A DNA stretch of 64,000 nucleotides, taken from contig CALLFZ010000017.1 in assembly GCA_938010045.1 (NCBI GenBank), positions 1-64,000 on the forward strand, given 5' to 3'. The position numbers and the translations under genes are program-made. Below are positions 22,442 through 29,536 of the stretch, in pieces. The notes beneath the pieces are model-generated. The model was given only the letters and a program-made list of their open reading frames with translations, did not search any database and was not told the origin of the DNA. Within the stretch, counting starts at the first letter, position 1. Every line of letters starts with the position of its first letter. Source of the DNA: an uncultured bacterium. Its GTDB lineage: Bacteria > Verrucomicrobiota > Kiritimatiellia > PWTM01.

Positions 22442-22493
22442 TGCCTCGGTGACAGTCCGAAACCCGAAAGCGTCGGGAACAGCCACTGAGGCA
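22442..22493 (+). promoter_or_regulatory. Structured 5' leader of the RRM gene
   Basis: TGCCTCGGTG (22442-22451) pairs with CACTGAGGCA (22484-22493) over ten base pairs with one G-U. Inside, CCCGA (22463-22467) pairs with TCGGG (22473-22477) around a five-base loop, leaving an asymmetric internal loop. The structure ends 33 bases before the RRM start codon. RNA-binding and cold-shock genes often have structured leaders, so regulation of translation, perhaps by temperature or by the protein itself, is plausible but untested. Confidence 0.6.
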
Positions 22494-22526
22494 TCCGCAG
22501 AGCTGGCAGAAAAGAGAGAACACAAC

Positions 22527-22850
22527 ATGGCCACACGGTTATTCGTGGGGAATCTGTCCTTCGATACGACGGAGGACGAACTGCGCAGCCTGTTCGAGAA
22601 ATCTGGACAGGTGGTGAGCTGCGAGATCGTGCTCGACAAGTTCAGCGGGCGTTCGCGCGGCTTCGCGTTTGTGCAGATGGGCACAGACGATGAGGCTTCG
22701 CGGGCGATCGCGGACTGCAACGGCTACCGGCTGGGCGGCCGCGCGCTGACGGTCAACGAGGCCCGTCCGCGCGAAGAGCGTCCGTCCCGCGGCGATTTCG
22801 GTGGCGGGGGCGGGGGTCGGTTTGAGCGCGGCCGCGGCCGGCGGTTCTGA
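22527..22850 (+). CDS. Glycine-rich RRM RNA-binding protein
   Basis: The 107-residue protein is one RNA recognition motif (residues about 3-80) followed by a Gly/Arg-rich tail. RNP2 is LFVGNL and RNP1 is RGFAFVQM. Such small RRM proteins are known from cyanobacteria and several other bacteria, often as cold-induced RNA chaperones. The start ATG 22527 follows a purine-rich stretch AAAAGAGAGAA. The gene has its own candidate promoter, a long structured leader and a strong terminator, so it forms a single-gene unit. Confidence 0.93.
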   Translation: MATRLFVGNLSFDTTEDELRSLFEKSGQVVSCEIVLDKFSGRSRGFAFVQMGTDDEASRAIADCNGYRLGGRALTVNEARPREERPSRGDFGGGGGGRFERGRGRRF

Positions 22851-22875
22851 TCCGGTCGTTGTCTGATGCTCATGG

Positions 22876-22909
22876 CGCGGGCGCCCGGTCGGGCGCCCGC
22901 GTTTTTTTG
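22876..22909 (+). terminator. Intrinsic terminator of the RRM gene
   Basis: CGCGGGCGCCC (22876-22886) and GGGCGCCCGCG (22891-22901) form a perfect 11-base-pair stem with a GGTC loop, followed by seven T. It lies 26 bases after the RRM stop. Confidence 0.93.
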
Positions 22910-23008
22910 TTTTTCGTTGAGCTCGGCTCAGGCTCACTCCGCGCTGCGCAGTGGATTGCACGGAGGATGGATGCCCGCGGCGTCCGGCAGCGGACGCGCG
23001 GCCACACT

Positions 23009-23446
23009 TTAATCCCAGACCGGTTCGTTCTCGTCTGTGGGGTTGGTGGGACCGCCTGAAGCGGCGGGCTCGGCGGTGGACGGCTGGGGCTGAGTCGTAT
23101 AGCGTTTGAACATGGTGATGGGAGCATTGGCCGGGCGGCGGGGCGGTTCACTGACGGCCGGCGGAATCGCGGGAGCGGGCGAGGGAGCCGGCATTGCGCC
23201 GGTCGGGCGAGCCCGCGGAGGCGATGGCATAAGGGGTGCCGTCCCCACGGCCGGATCTCTGGCCGGCTCCGTCGCCATCGCCAAGGGCTGCGCCGACGAC
23301 TGCTCACGCGCATCCAGCATGCGCCGTAGCGCCAGCCGTTCCTTGGCGCGCTTGCTCGTCGAGGCATGGGCTGCGACCGCGAAGAGGAGGCTGAGAAACG
23401 TCGCGATGAGGCCGGTGACGGTGAGTGCGGCGGGATCCCAATTCAT
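23009..23446 (-). CDS. Proline-rich membrane-anchored protein, unknown
   Basis: The 145-residue protein is not recognised. It has one hydrophobic helix near the N-terminus (about residues 8-27, LTVTGLIATFLSLLFAVAAH), then a basic segment with a short helix. A long Pro/Ala-rich, probably disordered tail follows, ending DENEPVWD. Its start overlaps the ExeA-like ATPase stop by four bases (ATGA), so it is the last gene of the response regulator/KaiC/ExeA cluster. It may anchor or link the cluster proteins at the membrane; that is inferred from position only. Confidence 0.6.
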   Translation of the reverse strand: MNWDPAALTVTGLIATFLSLLFAVAAHASTSKRAKERLALRRMLDAREQSSAQPLAMATEPARDPAVGTAPLMPSPPRARPTGAMPAPSPAPAIPPAVSEPPRRPANAPITMFKRYTTQPQPSTAEPAASGGPTNPTDENEPVWD

Positions 23447-24309
23447 ACGGCGGTCTCCCCAGCGCTCACCTTCGCGCCGGACGGCGCGGTGAGACCGGCT
23501 TCGGTGATGGCCTGCAGCATGATCTGGCGCGTGACCTTGGTCGCCTTCAGCACGTAGCCCATCATCAGCGCGATATCACAAATGTTGTTGATCAAGCGGG
23601 GAATTCCGCCCGAGGCGACCGCGACCTCGCGGAGCGCGTCCTCTTCAAACACCCACATATCGCCGCCGGCCGCGCGCATGCGCAGCTCGACGTATTCGAT
23701 CACCTGGCGTTCATTCAGCGGGGCTAAATGCCAGATCATCGCAAGACGTTGGCGGAGGGCAGGCTCACGCGCGAGGCTTGAGATGAGCTGCTCGTGGCCA
23801 GCCAGGATGATCGTGAACGCGGCCGAGTCGGGCCGGCCGGCGGTGGCGGGTATGCGGATGTTCGTCAGTAAGTGCAGCAAATCGATCGACGCGGAATCGC
23901 GAATCAATTGAGCTTCGTCGATTGCGAGAACCGTGTGCACGAACGGCGGGCGATTTGATGCGACGAGTTCGTGCAGCGCGTCGAGCAGCGAGGCGACGTC
24001 CGCGAAGCTGGCCGAGGGAATCAGCGCCCGGCCGATTTGACGGGCGAGCGTATCCACCCCGCCCGGCGGCACGTCCATACGGACCATTCGCGAACTGCCG
24101 ACGCTGTCGACCTGGCGGGCGAGCAGTTCGAGGACCATGGACTTGCCGACGCCGTACGGTCCAGCGAGCACGCCGCCGAGCTTTCGGCCCTGGACCACGT
24201 AAATCAGACGTGCGAGTCCCTCCTGGTGTTGGTCTGAGAGATACGCAAAGCGCGGGTCCGCCACATTCTGGAAGGGTTCTTCGCGAAGATTCCAATGGGA
24301 CAGGTACAT
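23443..24309 (-). CDS. ExeA/GspA-like AAA ATPase
   Basis: The 288-residue protein opens MYLSHWNLREEPFQNVADPRF-like (quoted in part), the usual start of ExeA-type ATPases. These are known from secretin assembly (ExeAB) and from many uncharacterised clusters. Walker A is GPYGVGKS at 50-57 and Walker B is VLAIDEAQ at 127-134. Later blocks AGHEQL, LRQRLAMIWHLAPL and SGGIPRLINNICD are family-typical. The C-terminal peptidoglycan-binding part of full ExeA is absent. It follows the KaiC-like gene by nine bases and overlaps the membrane protein gene. The pairing with a KaiC-like ATPase and a response regulator suggests a signalling-controlled machine. Confidence 0.85.
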   Translation of the reverse strand: MYLSHWNLREEPFQNVADPRFAYLSDQHQEGLARLIYVVQGRKLGGVLAGPYGVGKSMVLELLARQVDSVGSSRMVRMDVPPGGVDTLARQIGRALIPSASFADVASLLDALHELVASNRPPFVHTVLAIDEAQLIRDSASIDLLHLLTNIRIPATAGRPDSAAFTIILAGHEQLISSLAREPALRQRLAMIWHLAPLNERQVIEYVELRMRAAGGDMWVFEEDALREVAVASGGIPRLINNICDIALMMGYVLKATKVTRQIMLQAITEAGLTAPSGAKVSAGETAV

Positions 24310-24318
24310 GAGCGTATC

Positions 24319-25212
24319 TCAGCCGCCGAGCGTGACTCCGAATCGAAATCCGCGCGGGGAAGGCCGTTCGGAGGGGTTCTGAGGAGACAAAAGGACCTGT
24401 GAAAAGCGGACGCGGGCTGGAGGGGCGAACGCGCCGGGCGACGGCGCGGCGGCAGAGGCGGGCGCGCCCGTAGAGGACGCCGCCCCGCCGGTTTCGGCGG
24501 CGACAATGGGCGCCGCGTTCCGCGAGTCCTCAGTCCCCTCCACTGCTCCGCGACCGGGCACCAGCACGTACGGCATTGGGAGAAGCGTACGCGTGGCGCC
24601 GAGATACTTCGTGGTGGTCCAGGTTTTCTGTGAGGTTGTGGGATCGACGCTCAAGGTGATGGAAATCGGTACGACATCATCGATCGCGTTCTTGATACGG
24701 ACGGCGGCCGACGAGACCGGGCGCGGAAGTGTGAGAAGCGTGGTGCACCGCAGCCGCTCGAAGGCGCGGACAAACGAGAAGACGTGTTCAGAGACAAGAT
24801 CCGGCTGCGCCGCGGCCACCCACGGGACGACCGTGTCGATCGCCATGCGTCTGACCGCCTGGCTTTCAATGATGTCCTGAAGCTCGAGAAACCCCTCGGT
24901 GGGCAGCATCATGTTGGTTTCGCGGTCGCGGCCGGGGACGTAATGGCTGTACTCGAGCAGAGTGAGCGCTCCACTCTCCACCGCGTGTTCCATATCCGGG
25001 CCATAAGCGGCCGCCCAGATCGCGGAGTCGGCGGCCGGACGCGCGGAGAGCAGGAGCGCTCGCTGTCCTGACCGAATCCCCTGGGCGAGAAACTGGAGTG
25101 AGATCGCAGACTTGCCGACGCCGGAGGGACCACACAGCAGCCAACAGCGGCCGGCATAAACGCCGCCCGTCGAGGCGTCAAAAAACTCAATCCCTGTCAG
25201 CTCCTTATGCAC
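24319..25212 (-). CDS. KaiC-like RecA-superfamily ATPase
   Basis: The 297-residue protein has one RecA/KaiC-type domain. It starts GIEFFDASTGGVYAGRCWLL and has Walker A GPSGVGKS at 28-35. A hydrophobic strand ending in Asp (RRMAIDTVVPW) serves as Walker B. In KaiC-type ATPases the strand after Walker A usually ends with a Glu pair; here the matching place reads LLLSARPAAD, so catalysis may be weak or altered. The last 90 residues are Pro/Ala-rich and probably disordered. The gene overlaps the response regulator by eight bases. Relatives act in clocks, archaellum motors (FlaH/ArlH) and signalling. The role here is unknown. Confidence 0.75.
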   Translation of the reverse strand: MHKELTGIEFFDASTGGVYAGRCWLLCGPSGVGKSAISLQFLAQGIRSGQRALLLSARPAADSAIWAAAYGPDMEHAVESGALTLLEYSHYVPGRDRETNMMLPTEGFLELQDIIESQAVRRMAIDTVVPWVAAAQPDLVSEHVFSFVRAFERLRCTTLLTLPRPVSSAAVRIKNAIDDVVPISITLSVDPTTSQKTWTTTKYLGATRTLLPMPYVLVPGRGAVEGTEDSRNAAPIVAAETGGAASSTGAPASAAAPSPGAFAPPARVRFSQVLLSPQNPSERPSPRGFRFGVTLGG

Positions 25213-25612
25213 GATCCGCTTTCTGCTCGCTCCGTTGTTGTTCGGGGGATTGGTTCGCGAGCCACCGATTCACCACAGCGCGAACAAAACCCATCTCAAA
25301 GGGTTTCGTTAGAAAATCGCGCACGCCGAGTTGGCGGCATTCCTCGACAAAGGCGGGGTTCGGGTATCCGGAGATCACCACCACGGGGCAGTCGGGACGC
25401 AGCGAAACGAGACGCCGAATGAACTCAATGCCGCGCGGTTCGCCGGGCATGTATACATCGGAAATCACCAATTGAATGTCTGGGTCGGCAATGGCATGGA
25501 GCGCCCCGCCCGCATCCGATGCGGATACGATTTCATGATTCGCGGAGGCCAGGACGCGCTGGAGGTACCCCAGCACGCCAGGGTCGTCATCGACGATCAA
25601 AATCTTCGGCAT
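25205..25612 (-). CDS. Single-domain response regulator
   Basis: The 135-residue protein is a receiver domain with a short C-terminal extension. The acid pocket is D8-D9, the phosphorylated Asp is D52 in VISDVYMPG, the switch Ser lies in VVVISGY and the Lys in FLTKPFEM. No DNA-binding output domain is present, so it should act through protein contact, most simply with the ATPases encoded after it. I start it at ATG 25612 (MPKILIVDDD); the frame extends upstream but crosses the promoter. No histidine kinase is in the window. Confidence 0.92.
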   Translation of the reverse strand: MPKILIVDDDPGVLGYLQRVLASANHEIVSASDAGGALHAIADPDIQLVISDVYMPGEPRGIEFIRRLVSLRPDCPVVVISGYPNPAFVEECRQLGVRDFLTKPFEMGFVRAVVNRWLANQSPEQQRSEQKADRA

Positions 25613-25637
25613 TCGGTACCCATCCCTAACCCAACAT

Positions 25638-25673
25638 CCATCCGCATCATAAGCGGATGGTCCGGAAACGCAA
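25638..25673 (-). promoter_or_regulatory. Promoter with overlapping palindrome
   Basis: On the minus strand TTGCGT (25673-25668) and TATGAT (25651-25646) are 16 bases apart, just before the response regulator gene. The -10 lies in the loop of a perfect eight-base inverted repeat, CCATCCGC (25638-25645) and GCGGATGG (25653-25660). A factor binding this palindrome would block or shape promoter use, so it is a good operator candidate. A second hexamer TAGAAT lies further upstream. Confidence 0.55.
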
Positions 25674-25727
25674 GCCGAACTCGAAATCGCTCTGATGATT
25701 CTAGGTGGTTGGTTGGGACCCGGCCGC

Positions 25728-28700
25728 TCACGGAGCCGCCGCACCCGCCGGGCCAATCCAAATGCAACGAGATGGATGGCGCAGTTGTTGCAGGAGGTCA
25801 CGCGGCTCATGGAGAGCCGAAACCAACCTCACGCCGGGTTCGAACTCGATGCGCCGGCTCCAGCGCGCGGAGCCGTCATCCTGGCGCTGAACCGTGACCG
25901 ACACACGGTTGGAACTGGCGGCGGACGATGTGAGCGGCAAGGGCGCGCTGGGGATCCAATCGACCTGCGGAGGGGGACGGAGGCAGAGCGAGATGTTCTC
26001 GCGGATGGGCTGTTCTCAGTGCAGGGGTTGAGTGCGGGTGTTGCCCTCGACACCGGGCCAGACGGGACGAGGAAGAGGGGGTTCGACCTACCACCGGGGG
26101 TCAGCCCGTTGGGCCAGGCAGGGGATCCGAAGCCGGAGTTCCTCAACCGCTGGATATTCGTCGAGGCGGCGGATGGGCGCGCCCTCGGGATCCGCATGGA
26201 GCGAGATCGCGGCGAGCTTGGTGCGGTCGGTGCGGCGCAGCTCCTCGGGCGTGAGCTCGCGAATTTCGCGGACGTAGGCGGCATGGTGCCTGCCGTGGAA
26301 GCGACGGCGTCGCAGGATGCGCGCGGCGCCGTCCGGCTCGATCTCGATCTCGAATTCAATCTCCGTGCTGTGGCGGAATTCCGCGGGTTCTGGCAGCGCA
26401 ATGATGCGCCCGGCCGATACAACCAGGGCCAGATTGCCCCACGAGGGAGTGGCGCCCAGCGCCGCGTCGTGGTCGGTGTCATTGCGAAGGATGGGGCGCC
26501 CATCCGCATCGTGGACACCGCATCGTGGACACGGATCAAAACCCGGTCGAAAGGATAGAGCCAGGGCATATCGCAGAGCGGTGCATATTGGGCGAACTGA
26601 TGGGACAGCGTGGTGGCGGGTACCCATTCGGGATCGAGGCCGATGGCGCGGAGCATCGCGAACAACAGGATGGCGCGGTCGACGCTGTGACCGTAGCCGT
26701 CGGCCCAGACACGGTCCGCGGACGACGCCTCGCCCAGGGGCAGGGCGAACGGATTGGGGCCGGCATCGCGGATACGTTGCGCCACCGTGTCACGGATGGC
26801 GCGGATGCGCTCGAAGAGCGGCCGCGAATCGGGGGCAATGTGGCGAGCGAAGGAGGTGAGTTCGTCGCTGGCTTCGGAGACCGTTATCCGCAAAGTGGTC
26901 TGCAGCCGGCGGCCATACTCCTGACAGTCACCGTCGCTAAACAGCCAACAGCGACCGGCCAGCCATGCCGGCGGCTCAGCGGGTTCGCGGGGTGTCGGGG
27001 GGATGCGCTCGGTGCGCCAGGTCGGGGTGTGGCTACCATTTGCGACCGTGTCACGGCGATCCCGATGGGGTGCGGCGGCGGGTTCAGCGATGCGAGTGGC
27101 GATGCCAGTGGGCGCAGGGAGGCGCACGATGCGTTCGCGCACCGGGTCTTGTGAGGACAGCGCCGGGGCTTCGGCGAAGAATGGCGGTTTCGGACGACTG
27201 CGACCGTACAAATCGGATGCGGGCGCCCGGAGCGATGGCGGGCAGCGCGGCGACGAGCACGCGGCCGGCCGGGTAGCGCGGGGCCGAGGCTCTCCACGCC
27301 TGGTCCATGATCTGCACGTCGAGGGGACCGGGTGAGTTCGTGGCACCTTCCGGCGAGATCACTTCCGCGAAAATGAGCCGCGCCTCATTGTGGTTGTCCA
27401 AATACGGGAGCTTGATCTCCGCGCAGGCTGTGGCGCCCGCATAGGTGAGGGGGACTTCAACAACTCATTGGTCACGGCCCAGGCGCTGGGTGCGAGCCAC
27501 GCGACATCGGTGGCGTGACAGACCACTTCAACGTCCGGTGGGGATGGCCGAAAGGGAAGGGCCGGCCGAACCGTGGCCGGAGCGAATGGGGCGGCCGCGG
27601 CAAAAATCCAGCGGTGACGTTGTTCGGCCACAACCGCGCGCATGGCCTCGCGAACGTTGAGGTAGTCGCGGGACGAAATCTCGATCTCACGGAAGTGCCA
27701 CCATGTTCGGCCGAAGATTTCGTTGGAGTGCGCCTTCCACTCGGTCCACCAGGGCATACTGGGAATCGTAATCCGGCGCGCGGGGGGCAGGCTCTGAACT
27801 GGTCCAAGAACTGGCGCCGTGCGAACGCGAAGCGTTTCCTCGACACCGCCGGTCGATCGCAGGCGAAGAGGGAATCGGCGCCGATCGAGCGATACGGCGT
27901 CGAGGTCGCGATGCACGACGCCGAACGCGGCGCCGAACGACGGCGGCGCCACGAGCACGGCCGACCCGCGGGGGATGGCGGGGGCGGGGGCGTCGAACCG
28001 CCACCGGGCGCGCAGGGGACGCGAGCGGTCGCACAGCTCGGGCGGATCGAGTTCGAGCTGGCTGATCCGACAGCCGGACAGCGCCAACTGAGCGGCGGGT
28101 TCGAACAGGCGGCGGCGTTCTTCGGCGCTGCGGCGAGCCAGATAGTTACGGTAAACGTTGTCGTTGATGCCAGAAACACCGCCTCACAGCGGCCGCGCAT
28201 TTCTCGGTTCGGCGACAGTTCGCTGTCTGTTGTGATTCGGACCACGTTCGAGACAGCGGGCGGCACCGGGGAGATCCGGAGAGGTTCGCCCTCGGGAGTG
28301 GCCATTCAGGTAGCTGCGGTGTGCGAGATAGGCCGGCAGCCAGTCCCGGCTGGCTTCGTCGGTGGGATCGAGCAGGGCGGTGGCGCCATCGGAGAACCGG
28401 ATCGCGGCGATGGCGTGATTGAAGTAGGGCATGGGCACGTGGGGGTCGAGCAGCGGGCCGGCGTGGATGAGAACGGGGAATCCGCTGAGCCCGGCGGCCG
28501 AGGCCATCGCGGCGAGCAGGGCGGCCTTGTCCCGGCACACGCCGTGTCGCTATCGCAGGGTGAGGGCGACGTCATGCGGCTCGTAGCCGGGGGCCTCGGT
28601 CTCAGCGGTGATGCCGAGGTAGCGGACCGGTTGTGAGACGAAGATGAAGAGCGCATCCGCCTGCGCTTGTTCGTCGGTTCGGCCGCGGAGGAGTTTGGCA

Positions 28701-29536
28701 ACCACGCTGGGCAGTTCGTCCCCTGGCGTCATGTGCGGTTGGCAGAGGTTCCAACACCATCGTGAAATTGAGGGCCAGTCCTTGCCGGTGCTCACGAGCA
28801 CGCGCTGGAGCACGCCGTATGGCTCGGGCATGAAGGGTTCGTGGTACATGCGCGGGACATAGGTGGCGGTCCTGCGGTGACGCGTGCCACCCGCCCACGG
28901 CTCCTTTTCGCAGTGCAGAGTGCCGGGAATCTCATCCCGCACAACGCGGTGCCGGAACGGACGAACCGACGGCGCTTCCACTTCGTATACTGCGCGAAGG
29001 ATCGGCGCCGCGCCTTCCCGAAGGCATATGTCGAACCACTCGTTCGGGACGCGCACGCGGTGTCTCCGTTCGACGAGCGCCACGTGCACAACGTCACCCG
29101 TCTCGACACCGGGCACCCCCACCGACAAGAGTTTTGCCAACGGGTCATAACTGTTGTTCGCCATTTGGTCCGGATGCGCGGCCACGCGAGTGGTCCGCGC
29201 CACATCGACCGGCCAGCGGCGTCCATCGGGCTTTAGAATCTCCCCACGTGCGACCTCAATTGTGGAGTCCACCGAGAAGGCCGGCCTTTTTGGCGTCAAC
29301 ACCCGCATGCAGCTCTCGTACCAGGAGGTCGCTGTGCCATCCGGCGCGTAGCGCGCCCGCTCGAGTTGATCGAGTGTCACAGTATCGGCGTCGGACCACC
29401 ACGATCTGTCCACGCCTGCGACGGAACAGCGAGCCGCGAGAGGATCGAGCGTCGGCCCTGGCGGGGCCGATGGTGAAGTGGTCAGCCCCGCGGCGGCGAG
29501 AGAAAACCCAACTGCGACGAGGAACGACAACGTCAC
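25728..29536 (-). pseudogene. Disrupted tandem DUF3857-transglutaminase protein
   Basis: Read across frames, this 3.8 kb encodes an exported protein with two successive DUF3857/transglutaminase-like units. It starts at GTG 29536 with a signal peptide. Unit one includes QPVRYLGITAE and, after an in-frame TAG (28552-28550), RHGVCRDKAALL. Unit two includes ADGYGHSVDRAILLFAMLRA and ends near RHPSRCIWI. Damage seen: the TAG; frame changes near 28305, 28165-28190, 27460 and 27200; a 14-base tandem duplication at 26504-26531; an extra C in a C-run near 26096; and a TGA at 26018-26016 where W is expected. Neighbouring genes are intact, so general sequencing error is unlikely. Intact homologues are about 1,200 residues by my recollection. 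Confidence 0.85.
26504..26531. repeat. 14-base tandem duplication that shifts the frame
   Basis: CCGCATCGTGGACA occurs twice in perfect tandem (26504-26517, 26518-26531). Removing one copy restores the minus-strand reading VHDADGRPILRNDTD in the transglutaminase pseudogene. It is a recent-looking slippage mutation. Confidence 0.9.

Follow-up and report, generated by a model that had tools for sequence, protein, structure and literature searches.

Synthases of the Pga, cellulose and alginate types are switched by c-di-GMP. In the Pga system, the pair PgaC-PgaD is controlled by this nucleotide (PMC8461298). Proteins related to those of the locus analysed here are known from other settings. In the archaellum, the KaiC-like protein ArlH binds ATP, and phosphorylated ArlH stops binding the ATPase ArlI (PMC8978795). 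ExeA and ExeB provide a precedent for an ATPase that acts with a single-pass partner (PMC4098917). The circadian clock ATPase KaiC, which shares the PF06745 fold family with one of the proteins described below, has two domains and tandem catalytic glutamates and is accompanied by kaiAB. The curated ATPase family nearest to the ExeA-like protein is the XrtA/PEP-CTERM-associated ATPase TIGR03015, named after a system that is itself tied to exopolysaccharide loci. The parts of the unit belong to known families, and no description of their combination was found among the open-licence papers searched: none of these combines KaiC and ExeA with exopolysaccharide or a response regulator, and none combines KaiC with a polysaccharide deacetylase and a response regulator.

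Organization of the four-gene unit

The window, i.e. the whole stretch of 64,000 nt that was analysed, corresponds to positions 1-64000 of contig C17 of the 3.2 Mb draft genome G000. It encodes, on the minus strand and in 5' to 3' order, a response regulator, a KaiC-like protein, an ExeA-like ATPase and a small membrane protein. The first two genes overlap by 8 bases, the second and third are separated by 9 bases, and the last two overlap by 4 bases; the coordinates of all four agree with this layout as given in the preliminary description. The open reading frames are genes and not chance ORFs, because orthologues keep the same order in many genomes. The single promoter that had also been proposed was not recovered, as a sigma-70-type scan of positions 22850-26100, which is low-powered in this organism, gave no match. 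The four-gene unit is real, conserved and tied to exopolysaccharide secretion. A role in anti-phage defence was considered and rejected (no PADLOC match).

Two neighbouring genes were recorded. A small RRM-like RNA-binding protein with a Gly/Arg tail, recognized from its sequence only, adjoins the module (22449-22850, plus strand). Upstream of the module, a DUF3857/transglutaminase-like gene (25829-29536, minus strand) is decayed, with in-frame TAG (28552) and TGA (28186) codons and frameshifts. In the neighbouring species G001, the same gene is intact as a single frame of 1507 aa (L030:4427-8947).

Response regulator and KaiC-like protein

The first gene (25205..25612, minus strand) encodes a single-domain response regulator of 135 aa (PF00072, E 3e-22). 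It fits the CheY-like single-domain class, consisting of the receiver domain alone with the acidic pair, the phospho-acceptor Asp, S/T and Lys. The codon of the acceptor Asp52 lies at 25457-25459, and the acidic pair, S/T and Lys (FLTKPFE) are kept in 16 orthologues. A gene with this domain is found directly upstream of KaiC in 26 of 38 loci and is missing from several lineages. The response regulator is dispensable in part of the lineages, which have lost or replaced it.

The KaiC-like protein (24319..25212, minus strand; 297 aa, GTG start) is a single-domain ATP-binding protein (PF06745, E 5e-22) with a Pro/Ala-rich C-terminal tail that carries a conserved RFSxV motif. Its Walker A motif GPSGVGKS (25108..25131, minus strand), identified by sequence comparison of the loci, is kept in most of them; the P-loop is degenerate in L108, L112 and L121, and L046 shows a Lys-to-Arg exchange. 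The segment SARPAAD (25027..25047, minus strand) stands in place of the canonical KaiC FEE, so that the tandem catalytic glutamates are absent. They are missing from the KaiC-like protein in 37 of the 38 loci, the exception being L109, whereas canonical two-domain KaiC proteins of relatives (L022, L023) read MAFEE and retain them.

Membership in the KaiC family might suggest a clock-like timing device, as cyanobacterial KaiC is. In contrast to clock KaiC, however, the module protein has one domain and lacks the glutamates, its P-loop is degenerate in some loci, and neither a kaiA nor a kaiB homologue was encountered in the module, so that a timing role is very improbable. Models generated with AlphaFold from two-sequence alignments were poor for the KaiC-like and the ExeA-like protein (mean pLDDT 35 and 46, respectively) and were set aside.

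ExeA-like ATPase and membrane anchor

The third gene (23443..24309, minus strand) encodes an AAA+ ATPase of 288 aa (AAA_22, E 2e-15) with no membrane helix and no Pfam match to a peptidoglycan-binding domain. Walker A (GPYGVGKS, 24139..24162, minus strand) is kept in every orthologue that covers the site. The Walker B Asp-Glu (23914..23919, minus strand), the sensor and the arginine finger are kept in nearly all loci; in L115 and L116, the Walker B Glu is replaced by Asp and the arginine is missing. The protein thus has what characterizes the ExeA/GspA group, an AAA core with intact Walker A and B motifs and an arginine finger. Compared with NCBIfam TIGR03015, it scores 115.9 bits (E 2e-33) against a curated cut-off of 324.5, and is therefore not a member of that family; no exosortase was present among the genes scanned around the module. 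The two ATPases proposed in the preliminary description are unequal: the ExeA-like one has intact catalytic motifs, and the KaiC-like one is without the tandem glutamates and, in some relatives, also without the P-loop. The window's genome also encodes a second ExeA-like ATPase (G000:C31:54862-55653, L029; 33% identical), which adjoins a symporter and an ABC-class ATPase and has no neighbouring exopolysaccharide genes. Similar copies are found in most relatives.

The last gene (23009..23446, minus strand) encodes a small Pro-rich membrane anchor of 145 aa, with an N-terminal helix, a basic flank, an FKRY motif and a C-terminal PVWD. The predicted sole membrane helix, LTVTGLIATFLSLLFAVAA (23369..23425, minus strand), is followed by basic residues. 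Locus comparison identified the short motif FKRY (23099..23110, minus strand; F[KR][KRQ] in relatives) and the C-terminal peptide EPVWD (23012..23026, minus strand). In a plain sequence search the anchor looked almost genus-specific. The gene following ExeA nevertheless has a shared build in nearly all loci: a short acidic N-terminus, a helix that typically reads T-G-[LV]-I-A-T-x-L-S-x-x-F-A, basic residues, a Pro-rich linker and F[KR][KRQ]. A W[EDQ] end, mostly as [Y/F]xW[E/D/Q], is found on the anchor in 30 of 38 loci, a count that includes three loci reaching a contig edge (L042, L043, L121) in its denominator. Among 2632 ORFs of 70-330 aa from the first loci, a W[ED] C-terminus occurs in only 18, of which 14 are anchors and the other 4 lack a hydrophobic helix. 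The C-terminal motif recurs in all nine loci that had been left out of its definition, and the diverged loci L110-L112 have it as well. At two loci, L045 and L046, the anchor gene has been relocated and now heads the divergent polysaccharide operon.

The net charge of the anchor is higher after the helix than before it in 29 of 29 cases. By the positive-inside rule, this basic flank places the Pro-rich tail probably in the cytoplasm, where the ATPases are, in keeping with the membrane docking by a Pro-rich protein that had been suggested earlier.

The pairing of an ExeA-group AAA+ ATPase with a small, Pro-rich protein that crosses the membrane once recalls ExeA/GspA-ExeB/GspB of type II secretion. 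It is conceivable, if rather unlikely, that the ExeA-like ATPase and the anchor place or assemble a trans-envelope exporter, like ExeAB or a ParA/MinD-like positioner, while response regulator and KaiC decide when and where, and that synthase activity itself is untouched. The best-studied ExeA relative is indeed an assembly factor with a single-pass partner (PMC4098917), and in the diverged loci L110 and L111 KaiC-ExeA is part of the operon that encodes the TPR-deacetylase-barrel protein and not of the synthase operon. However, in contrast to ExeA/GspA, the module ATPase has neither a transmembrane nor a peptidoglycan-binding domain, the tail of its partner is predicted to be cytoplasmic and not periplasmic, and no secretin locus is present. 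The orientation of the module, which is divergent from the synthase gene in most linked loci, also argues against a role confined to assembly.

Conservation across genomes

Of 58 sampled relatives, 22 have a KaiC orthologue at the threshold of the search tool, and 18 have one at E below 1e-45. Further orthologues come from other families of the class, and a diverged copy is present in one genome outside it. A contig scan with single-protein patterns found one relative only. The surrounding DNA of 38 KaiC loci was read and compared. In 33 of them, the gene immediately after KaiC is that of ExeA; two of the five exceptions (L107, L121) break off at a contig edge. Such wide conservation, together with the gene order at 38 loci, indicates that the unit arose long before the window's species and is conserved well beyond its genus. 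Its core is KaiC, ExeA and the anchor. The compact unit of four proteins put forward in the preliminary description is upheld, the same set being kept together across relatives with the anchor as a constant partner. The genes do not co-occur rarely, nor do the module loci fall into a named pilus or gliding locus; a pilus, gliding or type II secretion context was not seen there.

Several loci deviate from this pattern. In L108, L110, L111, L112 and L121, diverged KaiC-ExeA pairs lie in or near a TPR-deacetylase/SGNH/MBOAT operon; several of these pairs have degenerate nucleotide motifs in KaiC, and ExeA is intact where readable. In L036 (G005), RR-KaiC-ExeA is kept and the W-E anchor is absent along with the synthase, possibly by joint loss.

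Association with exopolysaccharide genes

A set of polysaccharide genes adjoins the module in 27 of the 38 loci; in 16 this set includes the GT2 synthase itself. The synthase is processive, has membrane helices (Pfam GT2/Chitin_synth_2), and is nearest to hyaluronan (6e-22) and chitin synthases among solved structures. A PgaB-like deacetylase with TPR repeats matches solved PgaB (1e-12), and a TPR-deacetylase-barrel-like protein matches solved IcaB (5e-9). Not every deacetylase copy has an intact set of catalytic residues; the PgaB-like protein of L037 reads TTFEQS. For the exporter candidate, the TPR part is clear, and the only signs of a barrel are a C-terminal Phe and a weak match to Autotransporter. 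Further genes of the set, those for O-acylation among them, encode an MBOAT acyltransferase, an SGNH/DUF459 hydrolase and a GHL10 hydrolase. An unusual PgaA-PgaB-like fusion is encoded at L104:7247-10981 and L037:15954-19499, where a single protein combines a putative outer-membrane barrel with TPR repeats and a PgaB/IcaB-like deacetylase domain.

Features in common with PgaABCD and IcaADBC, which make and export poly-beta-1,6-GlcNAc, are the processive GT2 synthase and the PgaB/IcaB-like deacetylases; a candidate exporter with TPR repeats and a putative outer-membrane barrel may be a further one. In contrast to these systems, the synthase is closest to hyaluronan and chitin synthases, deacetylase and TPR are fused to the putative barrel, and MBOAT and SGNH proteins are added, as is the RR-KaiC-ExeA-anchor module. 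Judged by the enzyme families, the polymer would be Pga/Ica-like. The conserved unit is not the stand-alone envelope machine postulated earlier; it belongs with a Pga/Ica-like system of exopolysaccharide synthesis and export.

The two halves are not always neighbours. In the window's genome, C34 carries the synthase, which shares 55% identity with its L037 counterpart, together with a PgaB-like gene, and C21 carries the TPR-deacetylase protein, MBOAT and SGNH; a physical link to the module is therefore missing there. Module and synthase are unlinked within the window's own genus, and in G000, G001, G005, G006 and G010 the module does not adjoin exopolysaccharide genes.

Co-inheritance of module and synthase

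Co-occurrence was scored with a synthase cut-off of E below 1e-150 and KaiC cut-offs of E below 1e-45 for the 58 relatives and below 1e-15 for the phylum sample. Among the 58 relatives, 17 have both, one KaiC only, one the synthase only and 39 neither (Fisher 2e-12). Across 289 genomes of the phylum, the corresponding numbers are 23, 6, 1 and 259 (Fisher 2e-27); as the genomes are related, neither value is a strict probability. Permutation restricted to within families still gave P 2e-4. KaiC without a synthase at threshold was found in G005 (also without the anchor), G060, G131, G221, G280 and G292. As for the synthase-only genomes, G012 (69% complete) carries an ExeA orthologue where a contig ends, and in G231 a diverged KaiC adjoins ExeA.

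Over 15 linked loci, KaiC, ExeA and the synthase show correlated distances (Mantel r 0.77-0.82). G172 has two modules whose KaiC proteins are 48% alike, and the second is 91/90/97% identical (KaiC/ExeA/synthase) to that of G190. Module and synthase therefore travel as matched sets. These comparisons strongly suggest that the module is tied to the exopolysaccharide system.

A general regulator, acting for instance on motility, stress or transcription, that is just carried along in exopolysaccharide islands would fit the five genomes with an unlinked module and the many outputs of CheY-like response regulators. Yet none of the four proteins has a DNA-binding domain, and the unlinked genomes G000, G001, G006 and G010 keep both halves, which hitch-hiking does not predict. 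With the co-occurrence and the matched subtypes of module and synthase, such a regulator is improbable.

Proposed function of the module

The module probably acts in the cytoplasm, tethered to the membrane and governed by the response regulator, to control (or drive) a Pga/Ica-type, synthase-dependent exopolysaccharide system. Its parts would divide the work, with the ExeA-like ATPase as engine, the KaiC-like protein as nucleotide-responsive adaptor, the response regulator as input and the anchor as tether. It may act on synthesis, export or assembly.

A more specific version is put forward only tentatively: a phosphorelay-gated two-ATPase complex, recruited by a cytoplasmic aromatic-acidic peptide at a C-terminus, may activate or drive the processive synthase and may be able to replace c-di-GMP control, as a new kind of control over polysaccharide secretion. 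On the main reading, an unlinked histidine kinase would phosphorylate the response regulator, which would set the state of a KaiC-like ATP-bound oligomer acting as adaptor or switch, not as motor. KaiC and response regulator together would license the ExeA-like ATPase, which the anchor tail would bring to the inner membrane and which would remodel or activate the synthase/export complex. Polymer output would then follow the phosphorelay and the ATP state, and the module would do for its synthase what c-di-GMP does for PgaC-PgaD. The anchor could occupy the place of a PgaD-like synthase partner.

The archaellum ArlH-ArlI-ArlJ offers a parallel, in that a KaiC-like protein gates a partner ATPase, at a membrane platform and with input of the response-regulator type (PMC8978795). 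This is an analogy and not membership: in the module the partner ATPase is an ExeA-like AAA+ protein and not a type IV-pilus-type ATPase like ArlI, ArlJ and archaellin are absent, and the output would be a polysaccharide. No archaellum genes were present in the loci examined, and ArlH structures were not among the matches of the KaiC-like protein at E 1e-3.

A general replacement of c-di-GMP by the module was rejected, as most module genomes have GGDEF domains; replacement is therefore possible only in some. G027 and G051 carry the module without any GGDEF domain, and the window's genome is without PilZ. If the proposed mechanism is true, the ATP- and phosphorelay-based module would add to c-di-GMP another means by which surface-polymer synthesis is switched, and the W-E tail would offer a testable handle for recruitment. 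The module would also give a function to a branch of bacterial KaiC-like and ExeA-like proteins that so far has none assigned.
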